The notes beneath the pieces are model-generated. The model was not told where the DNA came from and did no database searches. It worked only from the letters and a program-made list of their open reading frames with translations. Source: Phycisphaerales bacterium (GTDB taxonomy: Bacteria; Planctomycetota; Phycisphaerae; Phycisphaerales; UBA1924). From it: DNA of 64,000 nt. The position numbers were made by a program, and so were the translations under genes. Positions 29,354 through 34,313 of the stretch are shown here, one piece after another. Each line of letters begins with the position of its first letter. The first letter of the stretch is position 1. The stretch lies in contig JADLBU010000016.1 of NCBI GenBank assembly GCA_020847535.1, forward strand, positions 62,001-126,000, read 5' to 3'.

Positions 29354-29359
29354 TCCCCC

Positions 29360-30226
29360 ATGCCCATCTCCATCATCCCCGTCAAACCCGACCACATCCC
29401 CGCACTCGGCGAGATCTGCCACCTTGCCTTCAGCGCCCTCCAGGATCGCCACGGCGTCGAGCGCGATTTCGACACCGTTGAGATCGGACAGATGGTTATC
29501 TCCCTCTTCGCAACCCGGCCCGATATCGCCGGGTTCGCGGCGATCGACACCGACACCGGCAAGCTCCTGGGCTCCAACTTCCTGGCCTACTCCGATCCGG
29601 TCGCCGGCGTCGGCCCCATCACCATCCACCCCGATGAGCAATCCCGCGGCATCGGCCGGCTCCTCATGCTCGCCGTGATGGAAGAAGCTGAGCGCCGCGG
29701 GATCGCCCACGTCCGCCTCTTCCAGGAAACCATCAACACCTGCTCACTGTCCCTCTACACCAAGCTCGGCTTCGACTGGCGCGATGCCGCTTCGCTGATC
29801 AGGATCAATCCAGCCCCGAAGGATGATCCGCGCATCCGCCCCCTCACGACCGCCGATCTCCCCCTCGTCGATGAGATCTCGAAGCGCCACTACCACTCCA
29901 CCCGCATCAAAGAGGTCGCCGACATGCTCCGACTGGGCTTCCCCGGCTTCGTGCTCGCCGATCGCCACCTCATCACCGGCTATTTCTTCCCAGGCCTCCT
30001 CGGCCACGGGTTCGCCGTCACCGATGAAGGGCTCGCCAGCCTTGTCACCCACTCCGCTCGCCACGCGCCGCCGCAGTTCCACAAGGCGATCCTGCCGCTG
30101 AGCGAGAACAACCTCCACCGCGAACTGATGGCTCGCGGCTGCCGAAGCATCAAGATGTTCAACTACATGACCTTGGGCCCCTGGCAGCCCCCAGCAGGCG
30201 CCTGGATGCCCTGCATCGGGATGTAG
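29360..30226 (+). CDS. Tandem-domain GNAT acetyltransferase
   Basis: 288 residues. The N-terminal GNAT domain has the acetyl-CoA loop VGPITIHPDEQSRGIGRLLM and ETINTCSLSLYTKLGF. The C-terminal half (from about residue 155: IRPLTTADLPLVDEISKRHY) is a second, weaker GNAT-like domain lacking a clear glycine loop. The substrate is unknown. The start codon sits directly after a heptamer repeat, with no usual Shine-Dalgarno, so translation may be inefficient or leaderless. Confidence 0.8.
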   Translation: MPISIIPVKPDHIPALGEICHLAFSALQDRHGVERDFDTVEIGQMVISLFATRPDIAGFAAIDTDTGKLLGSNFLAYSDPVAGVGPITIHPDEQSRGIGRLLMLAVMEEAERRGIAHVRLFQETINTCSLSLYTKLGFDWRDAASLIRINPAPKDDPRIRPLTTADLPLVDEISKRHYHSTRIKEVADMLRLGFPGFVLADRHLITGYFFPGLLGHGFAVTDEGLASLVTHSARHAPPQFHKAILPLSENNLHRELMARGCRSIKMFNYMTLGPWQPPAGAWMPCIGM

Positions 30227-30301
30227 ATCCACGTGCGATTACGGCGCGTGTACCGCCGTCCTGCTGCCCGTTCCTCGCTCCCGTTCGCCGTTCGCCCCTC
30301 T

Positions 30302-30862
30302 TCACTTCCCTGGCCACATCCACATGAACACCAGCCCCGTGATCACGCCATACGCGATCCCATCCACGATGTTCGCCACGATCGTCCGCCGGTAGGCTCC
30401 GAACCAGATCATGTTCGGGATGAACGAGAAGCAGTACGTCAGGGTCCCCGCGGTCGCCACGATCCGGAACACGTGCATTCCCTCGGGCGAACCCGTGATC
30501 GCGATCGATGCCAGGTACCCGATCCCCGCCGAAGCGCACAGGAAGACCAGGAAGGTCGCGAACATCTTTCCACCCATCGACATGGGTGTCTTCCACACGT
30601 ACAGCATCCCCATCGGCCCGTGCTGCCAGGCCTCCTTCATCTCGGGCGAGTTGCGTTTCTCCGGCGTCTTGCAGTCCGGGAACCCATACACACCCGCCGG
30701 GATGTTCTGCGACTTCAGGAACGCCGTAAACCCCTTCTCATCGGGGAGTTCGATGTAGTCCTTCTTATGGTGCGGCATCGCCATCCACACGATCGCCGAG
30801 GCGATCCACACCGCCACCGCCGAAACCAGAATCGGAAGCCACAACGCCATGAATTCGGCCAT
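30302..30862 (-). CDS. Conserved membrane protein of unknown function
   Basis: 186 residues with four predicted membrane helices: about 6-28, 103-122, 133-152 and 162-182. The loop between helices 1 and 2 is soluble (KKDYIELPDEKGFTAFLKSQ and on). A good AAGGAG precedes the ATG. I do not recognise a family. It lies upstream of the pseudopilin-like gene on the opposite side of a short C-rich spacer, without clear coupling. Confidence 0.6.
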   Translation of the reverse strand: MAEFMALWLPILVSAVAVWIASAIVWMAMPHHKKDYIELPDEKGFTAFLKSQNIPAGVYGFPDCKTPEKRNSPEMKEAWQHGPMGMLYVWKTPMSMGGKMFATFLVFLCASAGIGYLASIAITGSPEGMHVFRIVATAGTLTYCFSFIPNMIWFGAYRRTIVANIVDGIAYGVITGLVFMWMWPGK

Positions 30863-30950
30863 GGAATGACTCCTTCACTACATCCCATCGGCAGAGCGGT
30901 CAAGGATCAAACAACAATTGCCTGTCTCGCACCCGCGTTTCTTCACCAGC

Positions 30951-30979
30951 GCCCAGTGCCCAGTGCCTGATGCCCAGTG
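30951..30979 (+). repeat. Tandem AGTGCCC / GATGCCC heptamer tract
   Basis: GCCCAGTGCCCAGTGCC followed by TGATGCCCAGTG. It lies 5 bases beyond the stop of the minus-strand pseudopilin-like gene. The same kind of unit recurs at 63468-63551. Confidence 0.6.
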
Positions 30980-30983
30980 TCTT

Positions 30984-31394
30984 CTAATACGGCAACGTAT
31001 CCGTGTACTTCTTGTCATCCTCGGTCTTGACCTCCCCATCCGGCCCCGCCGAGTGGTAGGTCACGACCGTCTTGCCGTTCTTCTCTTCGAAGGAGAGCGT
31101 CATCTCCTTCCCCCAAGGATCGTTGAACGCCCCCGGCGATTCCATGTCCGCCGGTTCCTTCGGCAGCTTCTTGTTGCTCTCGCGATACATCGCGATCAGC
31201 ATCGACATCTGCCCGACCTGGATCTCGCGCGCCATCTCCTGCCCGCGATCCTTGGTCCTCTTGACCTCCCCCATGTACGCCTTGCCGCCCCCCATGTTGC
31301 CGAACATGAGGTACAAGGCGATCGCCAAGGCGATCAGGATGACGAGGATCAGGATGCCGTTGCCGCGGCGGGTGGGTAGGGAGAAATGAACCAT
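30984..31394 (-). CDS. GspG-like pseudopilin-related protein
   Basis: 136 residues from the ATG at 31394 (another ATG at 31412). An N-terminal helix (GILILVILIALAIALYLMF) follows a short basic segment. The C-terminal half contains NDPWGKEMTLSFE and VVTYHSAGPDGE, the pattern of the GspG major pseudopilin's calcium-binding end. It lacks the usual prepilin GFTLIE cleavage site, so it is a pseudopilin relative rather than a standard pilin. It could interact with the secretin or GspE-like parts found elsewhere in the window. Confidence 0.55.
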   Translation of the reverse strand: MVHFSLPTRRGNGILILVILIALAIALYLMFGNMGGGKAYMGEVKRTKDRGQEMAREIQVGQMSMLIAMYRESNKKLPKEPADMESPGAFNDPWGKEMTLSFEEKNGKTVVTYHSAGPDGEVKTEDDKKYTDTLPY

Positions 31395-31418
31395 GTCCAA
31401 AGTATAACGCATCCCCGA

Positions 31419-31443
31419 ACGAGCCCGCAGCGCAAGCAAGGGC
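31419..31443 (+). repeat. REP-type 25-bp repeat, left of transposase
   Basis: It begins ACGAGCCCG and ends GCGCAAGCAAGGGC. It matches, in inverse orientation, the repeat at 32178-32202 in 22 of 25 positions. It lies 157 bases upstream of the transposase start codon at 31600. Confidence 0.7.
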
Positions 31444-31599
31444 ATTCCCGCCCCCGCAAGTCACGTGCATCCGCTACGAGGATTTCGGCCCTCGTGCGAA
31501 AAGGAGAAAGAGCCCTCTTGCCCCCACCGCACATCCATCAGTTCACCGCACCGACCGCGACCATTCTTCGGTATGATTTCTCCCGAATTCGGGGGTCGA

Positions 31600-32073
31600 A
31601 TGTCCGCACCTGCCTACTTCCTGACATGGTCCTGCTACGGCACATGGCTCCACGGCGACGCCCGCGGCTCGGTCGATTCAGGCTCCAACCAGCGCGGCAC
31701 GCCGCCTCTTTCCCCCGATTCCCGCCGTAGACAATCTGAATCCGAGCGGATGCGATACCCGCATGTCCTGCGCTCCGCGGAAGCACGCATCTTGATCGCC
31801 AAAACCATCGAGGCCCACTGCCAGGTCCGCAAGTGGACCCTGCTCGCCGTCAATGTCCGCTCAAGTCACGTTCATGTGGTCGTCGACTGCCACGAATCCG
31901 CCCCGCCCGAACGAGCCATGGAGCAATTCAAATCCTGGTCAACCCGCTGCCTCCGCGAAGCAGGTTACGCACTCCCCGATCAGAAGTCCTGGACCGAGCA
32001 CGGCAGCACGCGATGAATCAACCACGCGGCCGGGCTGGAGGCGGCAATCAGGTACGTGAACGAAGCGCAGTAG
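31600..32073 (+). pseudogene. REP-associated tyrosine transposase (RAYT, IS200/Y1 superfamily) with internal stop
   Basis: The ATG at 31600 (alternatively 31573) opens a 139-residue frame starting APAYFLTWSCYGTWLHGD, the usual start of planctomycete RAYTs. His90 and His92 in SSHVHVVV are the metal-binding HxH pair of single-strand HUH-type transposases. A Tyr in REAGYALPD is a candidate catalytic residue. A TGA at 32014-32016 follows HGSTR, yet the same frame goes on as INHAAGLEAAIRYVNEAQ before TAG at 32071. Relatives have HGSTRW here, so a TGG to TGA change cut off the last 19 residues. The gene is flanked by inverted 25-bp repeats. The enzyme may be inactive or merely shortened. Confidence 0.8.
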
Positions 32074-32086
32074 ACACCTCTTCGCA

Positions 32087-32111
32087 ACGAGCACGACGTG
32101 CAAGCAAAAGC
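32087..32111 (+). repeat. REP-type repeat, degenerate, just downstream of the transposase
   Basis: It begins ACGAGCACGACGTGCAAGC and matches the consensus of the flanking repeats in about 20 of 25 positions, in the same orientation as the left copy. It pairs with the inverted copy at 32178 as a head-to-head unit. Confidence 0.5.
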
Positions 32112-32177
32112 ACATGCCTTCGGCGAGTTGTCGCCGACCGCATCCCGATTCGACTCCCATCAGCGACGAGCCCCAAC

Positions 32178-32202
32178 GCCCTCGCTTGCGCGTCGGGCTC
32201 GT
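32178..32202 (-). repeat. REP-type 25-bp repeat, right of transposase, inverted
   Basis: Read on the minus strand it begins ACGAGCCCGACGCGCAAGC and ends GAGGGC. With the left copy it brackets the transposase. An ACGAGCCC at 32166-32173 can also pair with GGGCTCGT at 32195-32202 as a hairpin. Confidence 0.7.
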
Positions 32203-32212
32203 TCCATCTCCA

Positions 32213-34141
32213 CTACCACTCAGGCCCCCCCGAGTACCTCCCATAAATATCCGCCATCGCCTGCACCATCTCCCCAAGCGTGCAGTTCGCCAACGACCCC
32301 TCCACCAGCGCCGGCATCACGTTGGTCGCGTGCAACCCCCACGATGCCGGGTTGCTCGTGGCGGGCGCATGATCCTTCCCGCCCGGTCCCCCGATCGCCA
32401 ATAGCCCCAGAGAGTGCCGCGGCGCCTTCCCTTGGCAGACATCCCGGATGTTGTCCAAGGCCTTCGCAACCACACCCGCATCCCGCCGCTGCTTGAACGC
32501 GGCGAGCCGGGAGCACTGATCCGTCTCGACCTCGTGCGAGATCTGCAGGATCTCGATCGGCCGCTTCTCATCGTTATCCACGTACGCGTTAACCCCGACG
32601 ATGATCCGGTCCCCCGCCTCGCACTCCTCGCTGAAGCGGTACGAAGCCTCGGCGATCTGGCGGCGGAAGTACCCGCGATTGATCCCGTTGATGCACGACC
32701 TCCCGAACGATGATCGCGGTTCATACGCCGGATGCTTGCTGAGATCGGCGATCTCTTCCTGCTTTCCCCTTTGCCCTTTGCCCGTTTGCCCTTTGTACTC
32801 ACCCATCCGATCGATCTCATCAATGTAGTTGAGCGCCTCCCGCTCCATCGTGTCCGTCAGCTGCTCGATGAACCACGAGCCCCCGAGCGGATCGGCGACC
32901 CGTGTGATCCCCGTCTCGTGCGCCAGGATCTGCTGCGTCCGCAGCGCCACAGTCACCGCCTGCTCCGTCGGCAGCCCCAGCGTCTCATCCATCGAGTCCG
33001 TGTGCAGCGACTGGCACCCGCCCAGCGCGGCCGACATCGCCTGGAACGCGACCCGCACGATGTTGTTCAAAGGCTGCTGCTCCGTGAGCGAGCACCCCGC
33101 CGTCTGCACATGCGTCTTCATGAACCAGGAGCGATCGCTCTTGGCCCCGTATCGCCCGCGCATCATCCGCGCCCAGATCCGCCGCGCTGCCCGCAGCTTG
33201 CACAGCTCCTCGAAGAACTCGTTGTGGCTGTTGAAGAAGAACGAGAGCCGCGGCGCAAAGCTGTCGAGATCCAGCCCCCGCTCCACGCACGCCTCGACGT
33301 ACTCCATCCCATCACGCAGCGTGAACGCCAGCTCCTGGGTCGCCGTCGATCCCGCCTCGCGGATGTGATACCCCGAGATCGAAACGCTGTTCCACCTGGG
33401 AACGAACCGGCTCTGGAACTCGATGGTGTCCACCACCAATTTCACGCTCGGCTCAGGAGGGTAAATGAACTCGTTCTGCGAGTGGAACTCCTTGAGAATG
33501 TCGTTCTGCAGCGTCCCGCCCAGCGTGTCCCACGAAATCCCCCGCTGGATCGCGTGCCCCAGGTACATCGCCCAGATCACCGCCGCCGGTCCGTTGATCG
33601 TCTGCGAGACCGTCACCTGGCCGACGGGAATATCCGCATAAAGCCGGTGCATGTCCTCGATCGTGTCGATCGCCACCCCGCACCGCCCCACCTCACCCAC
33701 CGACAACTCATCATCCGAATCGCGCCCCATCAACGTCGGCAGGTCGAACGCCGTCGAGAGCCCCGTGTTCGCCTTCGTCCCCTTGGCCGCCTCCAGCAGG
33801 TACTTGAACCGCCGATTGGTGTCATCCGCCGATCCAAACCCCGCGAACTGCCGCATCGTCCATAGTCGAGTCCGGTATCCCTCCGGAAATAGCCCCCGCG
33901 TGTACGGATATTGCCCCGGCGGCGGCACATCCCGGTCCAGGTTCCCCGACTTCAGCGATTCGGGCGTCGGATACGCCGCGGACGAACCCGCCGGCTTCTG
34001 CGTCTCAGGCCCGTAAGAAGGGTTCAGCACCAGCCCCGAGATCGTGACGGCGTTGGGATCAACCACCGGCGCTGGCCCGCGATGGGCAGAAGTCGTAATC
34101 GCGGGTTCAGTAGACGTCGGACGACTGGATGTGGTGGACAT
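32213..34141 (-). CDS. Methylmalonyl-CoA mutase large subunit (catalytic domain)
   Basis: 642 residues from the ATG at 34141, fixed by TTGGAGG 7 bases upstream. An in-frame start at 34258 is unlikely. Motifs are YPYTRGLFPEGYRTRLWTMR and QFAGFGSADDTNRRFKYLL, then TGLSTAFDLPTLMG, SQTINGPAAVIWAMYL, ISGYHIREAGSTATQELAF, VQTAGCSLTEQQPLNNIVR and LHTDSMDETLGLPTEQAV. It isomerises methylmalonyl-CoA and succinyl-CoA with adenosylcobalamin. There is no B12-binding domain, so a separate small subunit must be encoded elsewhere. Residues about 447-495 form an insertion between IDRMG and GINRGYFRRQIAE, including YKGQTGKGQRGKQEE encoded by heptamer repeats. A related acyl-CoA mutase (isobutyryl- or ethylmalonyl-) cannot be excluded. 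Confidence 0.9.
   Translation of the reverse strand: MSTTSSRPTSTEPAITTSAHRGPAPVVDPNAVTISGLVLNPSYGPETQKPAGSSAAYPTPESLKSGNLDRDVPPPGQYPYTRGLFPEGYRTRLWTMRQFAGFGSADDTNRRFKYLLEAAKGTKANTGLSTAFDLPTLMGRDSDDELSVGEVGRCGVAIDTIEDMHRLYADIPVGQVTVSQTINGPAAVIWAMYLGHAIQRGISWDTLGGTLQNDILKEFHSQNEFIYPPEPSVKLVVDTIEFQSRFVPRWNSVSISGYHIREAGSTATQELAFTLRDGMEYVEACVERGLDLDSFAPRLSFFFNSHNEFFEELCKLRAARRIWARMMRGRYGAKSDRSWFMKTHVQTAGCSLTEQQPLNNIVRVAFQAMSAALGGCQSLHTDSMDETLGLPTEQAVTVALRTQQILAHETGITRVADPLGGSWFIEQLTDTMEREALNYIDEIDRMGEYKGQTGKGQRGKQEEIADLSKHPAYEPRSSFGRSCINGINRGYFRRQIAEASYRFSEECEAGDRIIVGVNAYVDNDEKRPIEILQISHEVETDQCSRLAAFKQRRDAGVVAKALDNIRDVCQGKAPRHSLGLLAIGGPGGKDHAPATSNPASWGLHATNVMPALVEGSLANCTLGEMVQAMADIYGRYSGGPEW
32752..32796 (+). 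repeat. In-frame TTTGCCC heptamer tract inside the mutase gene
   Basis: TCTTCCTGCTTTCCC, then CTTTGCCCTTTGCCC, then GTTTGCCCTTTG. Read on the coding strand it gives YKGQTGKGQRGKQEE. It matches, base for base over most of its length, the tract at 36780-36829 in the decarboxylase, and in the same reading frame. Confidence 0.85.
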
Positions 34142-34313
34142 ACAGAGCCTCCAAGGCGCAAAGGCCGGAATCAAGACCAAGCAACGGCATCCGCCGTGCG
34201 ATTGCAGAACGGAGCCCTCAGCCCTGTAGTTTATTCGGGTGGCCCCCCCAAAGAGCACCCCGCCCCCCAGCCATCCCTCTCCGTCTCAAAAATGGTCCGG
34301 ACGCGATGCAGCC

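Follow-up and report, generated by a model that had tools for sequence, protein, structure and literature searches.

The window, a 64,000-nt stretch of DNA (C16:62001-126000) from a draft genome of 4.94 Mb in 134 contigs, contains a gene for a HUH/Y1 transposase enclosed by short inverted repeats (Table 1). The gene begins with the ATG at 31600, and its read-through frame ends at a natural TAG at 32071-32073. With this start, the HVH motif comprises codons 90-92 (31867-31875), so that an earlier sequence-only reading of the locus had placed the two histidines (His90 and His92) correctly, and the catalytic tyrosine is Tyr152 (32053-32055). The encoded protein matched Pfam Y1_Tnp (PF01797) above the cut-off (E 3.3e-8), and an alignment showed that its HVH and Y....Q motifs are in register with those of 20 other family members. 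The only named relative returned by the protein scan belonged to the Planctomycetota MAG UWPOB_PLANC2. Searches of 72,556 plasmids with the window protein and of Rfam with the block 31417-32204 gave no match.

Table 1. Features of the transposase block and the adjoining genes (positions in the window).
Feature	Position	Strand	Remarks
Neighbour gene, weak similarity to type II secretion protein G	30984..31394	-	Under the Pfam cut-off
Left repeat (REP-like)	31417..31446	+	Foot ACGA 31419-31422, then imperfect hairpin GCCC...GCAA...GGGC
HUH/Y1 transposase pseudogene (RAYT-like, probably Class 3 type)	31600..32073	+	157 codons if read through
Premature TGA	32014..32016	+	Context GSTR*INHAAG; close relatives L009, L040 and L071 carry Trp there
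Third repeat copy, degenerate	32087..32110	+	13 nt past the natural stop of the transposase gene, sense orientation
Partial (fourth) repeat tag ACGAGCCC	32166..32173	+	Faces the right repeat; forms perfect 8-bp inverted arms (32166-32173 / 32195-32202)
Right repeat (REP-like)	32175..32204	-	Inverted relative to the left repeat
Methylmalonyl-CoA mutase gene (PF01642)	32213..34258	-	Pfam match; neighbour

The in-frame TGA, which the sequence-only reading had overlooked, lies 19 codons ahead of the natural TAG and cuts off the C-terminal helix bearing the catalytic Tyr; the WT motif precedes it, and the motif YVNEAQ follows it in the read-through sequence. Because the TGA is upstream of the Tyr motif, the window copy is without its catalytic tyrosine, barring an assembly error. 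Past the TGA, the frame stays open up to the natural stop and keeps the conserved C-terminus of the family, which indicates that the change to a stop is recent or artefactual. The same open frame favours an alternative in which the enzyme still works, because the TGA is either an artefact of assembly or subject to readthrough, the block being otherwise as proposed below. We regard this alternative as unlikely, because no other family member examined has a stop at this codon position and recoding is no family trait. Recoding of TGA as Trp was ruled out at the family level: the apparent internal stops of relatives were mostly the natural end of the gene just past the Tyr motif.

The repeats bracketing the gene were described in the sequence-only reading as 25-bp inverted copies agreeing in 22 of 25 positions, and this description was confirmed. 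The 25-mers at 31419-31443 and 32178-32202 differ in three positions, and the full arms are 87% complementary across 30 nt. Two exact matches to the degenerate pattern ACGAGCCCGNNGCGCAAGCNAGGG are present in the window, where 0.01 matches are expected even with up to three mismatches allowed. The third copy reported in that reading is also real, with 4 mismatches among 21 specified positions; 20 mononucleotide-shuffled versions of the window gave no match at up to 4 mismatches. Two further features had escaped it, namely the partial tag facing the right repeat and the position of the right-repeat tag, which lies 10 nt past the stop codon of the methylmalonyl-CoA mutase gene on the strand of that gene. 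An internal loop interrupts the window repeats, and their weak folding (z -0.96 and -1.72) counts against the explanation proposed below.

A genome-wide search with the repeat pattern at up to three mismatches gave seven matches, five or six of them convincing; the seventh (C76, 3 mismatches) lies within a coding frame and is probably a chance match. The genome-wide count proposed in the sequence-only reading shows that the repeat is not confined to the locus, but gives only five or six clear copies for the genome. So small a number is expected of an inactive element and further weakens the case for a functional enzyme. The genome contains two more family genes, on C113 and C119, which are 55% and 28% identical to the window enzyme, respectively. 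The C113 paralogue (L009:1480-2100) has a full open frame in which the catalytic Tyr is replaced by His (AITHVSEWQ), and one repeat pair on each side whose hairpin differs from that of the window but whose start, ACGAGCC, is the same. The frame on C119 is intact, and its flanking hairpin is tagged GGAGCC.

The relationship between enzyme and repeat was examined across the family. Profile searches detected family genes in 34 of 61 relatives; in a class-wide sample of 298 genomes, 133 contained such genes. An inverted repeat pair (score at least 18) surrounded 49 of the 62 family genes that had enough flank, two of which represent one gene extracted twice, and none of 1,103 control positions (570 anchors in the window and 533 in other loci, with 0 pairs in each set). 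The remaining 13 genes, with no flanking pair above the threshold, count against the explanation favoured here. Nearly all flanking repeats start with nGAGCC, followed by a hairpin particular to each locus. Hairpin similarity tracked enzyme identity (Mantel Spearman rho 0.62, permutation p 0.0002, 39 enzyme-repeat pairs), with a signal that derives partly from deep clades in a tree whose backbone is poorly supported. The link between enzyme and repeat, which the sequence-only reading had drawn from position, therefore goes beyond position in the family, and coincidence of the inverted pairs is untenable.

The exact pairing in the window is less secure. Enzyme genes flanked by repeats very similar to that of the window occur in G090, G311, G173, G152, and G317, whereas the nearest tree relatives of the window enzyme (L071, L009, and L040) carry other hairpins, so that the repeats most like the window's adjoin less closely related enzymes. 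Either hairpins change fast or pairings shift, and the window enzyme, although presumably the mover of the window repeat, has the hairpins of these three relatives against it as an exact partner. In relatives, stems with an invariant GCGCAAGC centre (GCAA loop) keep their pairing through compensatory changes (CCCGGGC/GCCCGGG, CCCAGGC/GCCTGGG, CCCTCGC/GCGAGGG, and CCTTTGC/GCAAAGG), and perfect versions of the hairpin form stable folds in single-stranded DNA (z -5.2 and -3.7). At one locus (L191; G219:C17:87500-92000), both sides of the enzyme gene carry a ~110-nt inverted repeat of several tandem ACGAGC(C/G)GC-GAGCGCA units.

Comparison of related genomes for presence and absence of the block was informative at a sister locus. 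In G090, a repeat-gene-repeat block of ~590 bp stands behind a stop codon and is absent from the congeners G025 and G072, in which the flanking genes are syntenic; at 80-88% identity, too low to read exact borders or a target duplication, gain and loss both fit. At the window locus, no clean empty site was found in the congener G001 or in G002, since the neighbourhood is rearranged in G001, where an acetyltransferase gene occupies the corresponding interval; G002 shares the mutase side alone. This acetyltransferase gene has moved between congeners (window 29358-32213 versus L166): it adjoins the mutase gene in G001 and lies ~2 kb off in the window, with other genes between. The proposal that transposase and repeats travel together consequently stands for the family, given the paired repeats, their co-divergence with the enzymes, and the G090 block, but not for the broken window copy in its repeat-poor genome.

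The presence or absence of the G090 block as a unit, like the shared protein superfamily, would also fit an ordinary IS200/IS605-type insertion sequence that has subterminal hairpins and is excised and moved in one piece. This explanation is very improbable. Dispersed hairpins occur with no accompanying gene, which refutes it unless all solo repeats are deletion remnants; the hairpins are inverted on the two sides of the gene; and the window protein scored 28.3 bits against the NCBIfam IS200 transposase model, for which the cut-off is 55.

Nineteen of the 298 genomes sampled from the class contained the window-type repeat (at most 1 mismatch). The enzyme was present in 14 of these 19 and in 119 of the 279 others (Fisher p 0.015, uncorrected for relatedness). 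At E 1e-15, no family enzyme was found in the other repeat-bearing genomes, G161, G026, and three more; G161 contains 64 repeat copies, with variants such as ACGAGCCCCGAGCGCAAGCGAGGG. Copy numbers reached 34-70 in G011, G012, G016, and G035. The sequence-only reading had held that occurrence of the repeat in genomes without any RAYT of this family would speak against it, and taken literally this is what we found, as G035 and G026 are rich in the repeat and have no detectable family enzyme. G035 carries 49 copies at up to two mismatches, and its sole Y1 gene is unrelated and accompanied by other repeats. Movement of the window-type repeat by another enzyme was rejected for both genomes, because the only Y1 genes there have unrelated flanking repeats. 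These genomes are best read as cases of enzyme loss after the spread of the repeat, and they show that the repeat does not need the continued presence of the enzyme. At L112 (G035:C32:15344-15598), an apparent rdgB/HAM1-type pyrophosphatase frame (family judged by eye) contains a Y1 transposase in the same frame, the fused frame being 404 aa long and associated with GCCGGTTTCCAACCGG repeats.

Solo repeats showed a directional placement. We surveyed 45 copies from the source genome, G035, G011, and G012, with 34 scored as intergenic on the basis of genes called by a simple codon-composition rule, which may be wrong in single cases. Twenty-eight of the 34 lie at most 60 bp downstream of a same-strand stop codon with the tag towards the gene, and two show the mirror arrangement (28 versus 2, sign test p 9e-7). 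In L003, L006, and L230, the first tag base is shared with the TAA stop, and the right and third copies in the window likewise follow stop codons. REPs are described in PMC3733652 as lying mainly downstream of coding regions, and no preference for one orientation with respect to the preceding gene is mentioned in the passages considered; it is the one-sided orientation, rather than the downstream position, that stands out in our data.

This placement, including that of the window copies, and the existence of repeats in genomes without the enzyme would be expected if the repeats were primarily mRNA 3'-end hairpins, terminator-like or stabilising, under selection, with a pair of them enclosing the transposase gene mostly by chance. 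Such a coincidence is irreconcilable with inverted pairs at 49 of 62 family enzymes and at none of the controls, each with its own hairpin, and we consider this account distinctly improbable. A 3'-end function of the repeats may well be compatible with enzyme-driven spread. The sense RNA of the repeat would present the GCAA loop, and it is conceivable, although we put it forward tentatively and with more doubt than belief, that the family's hairpin repeats were co-opted as directional mRNA 3'-end elements, standing in one orientation after stops, exposing a stem that ends in a GCAA (GNRA) loop, and outlasting the breakage or loss of the enzyme. The one-orientation placement permits a direct test of target choice by the enzyme versus selection on mRNA 3' ends.

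Taken together, the block 31417-32204 is very probably a decayed REPtron-like element, in which an IS200-related HUH single-strand DNA nuclease, probably of the planctomycete Class 3 type, is bracketed by inverted copies of its probable cognate hairpin repeat with the foot ACGA. Intact members of the family would bind the single-stranded foot and hairpin, cut beside the hairpin by means of the C-terminal tyrosine, and rejoin the strands, by which single repeats or repeat-gene-repeat blocks could be duplicated into, or relocated to, other intergenic sites. In the source genome, the nonsense mutation ahead of the tyrosine would leave the element unable to act for itself now, and a handful of repeats are left.

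Class 3 TnpA_Y1 proteins are among the known systems closest to the block in the features described for them. This small class (24 proteins, in 0.3% of species) occurs mainly in Planctomycetes, Acidobacteria, and Proteobacteria and is characterized by Y....Q, W[TA], N-terminal conservation, NHVH, and flanking atypical hairpins with the foot CnGA, which reach high copy numbers in some genomes (Quentin et al., 2018; PMC6006769). The window gene shares with it a planctomycete IS200-like HUH protein, N-terminal conservation, W[TA], and Y....Q, as well as atypical flanking hairpins with a 5' tetranucleotide foot and genome-dispersed repeats. In contrast to the class, the window foot is ACGA (CCGA or CGGA in the relatives L010, L101, L189, and L190), and the HUH motif is SHVH (NHVH or THVH in most relatives). 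Because of these two departures, we assign the window gene to Class 3 as probable. Compared with the 24 published proteins, family relatives occurred in 133 of 298 genomes here, and the window gene is nonsense-inactivated.

Proteobacterial RAYT/REP systems (PMC2817692, PMC3116915) have in common with the window a gene between two inverted palindromic repeats, a repeat dispersed elsewhere, and enzyme-repeat co-divergence, and the single-stranded repeat is cut and joined by the enzymes of E. coli, Stenotrophomonas, and Marinomonas (PMC8266576). However, the proteobacterial foot GT[AG]G (GTAG) and Y..NP-type motif differ from the ACGA and YVNEAQ of the window, and the window protein scored 20 bits against NCBIfam REP_Tyr_transpos (cut-off 80). 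The window gene is therefore not a GTAG-type RAYT, nor is it a standard IS200 element. TIRYT/TIRtrons (PMC3733652) likewise comprise RAYT-like genes that lack GTAG REPs and lie between inverted repeats of another kind, with repeats downstream of coding regions and planctomycete examples mentioned; the tags of the GTAG/CGTC-tagged repeats described there are unlike the ACGAG of the window.

In the broad sense of REPtron, the block combines a Y1/HUH transposase, two inverted palindromic flanks, and the same repeat dispersed mostly in intergenic positions, at low number in the source genome. Judged by its sequence features, it is REPtron-type in each broad respect tested, and it represents an ordinary but clear case of an element type already known, albeit decayed. 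More is learned from the pairing of enzyme and repeat across the family and from the orientation bias of the solo repeats than from the window locus itself. The family survey contributes numerous planctomycete members, with enzymes and repeats matched to one another, to a sparsely sampled RAYT branch considered intermediate between insertion sequences and domesticated REP enzymes.
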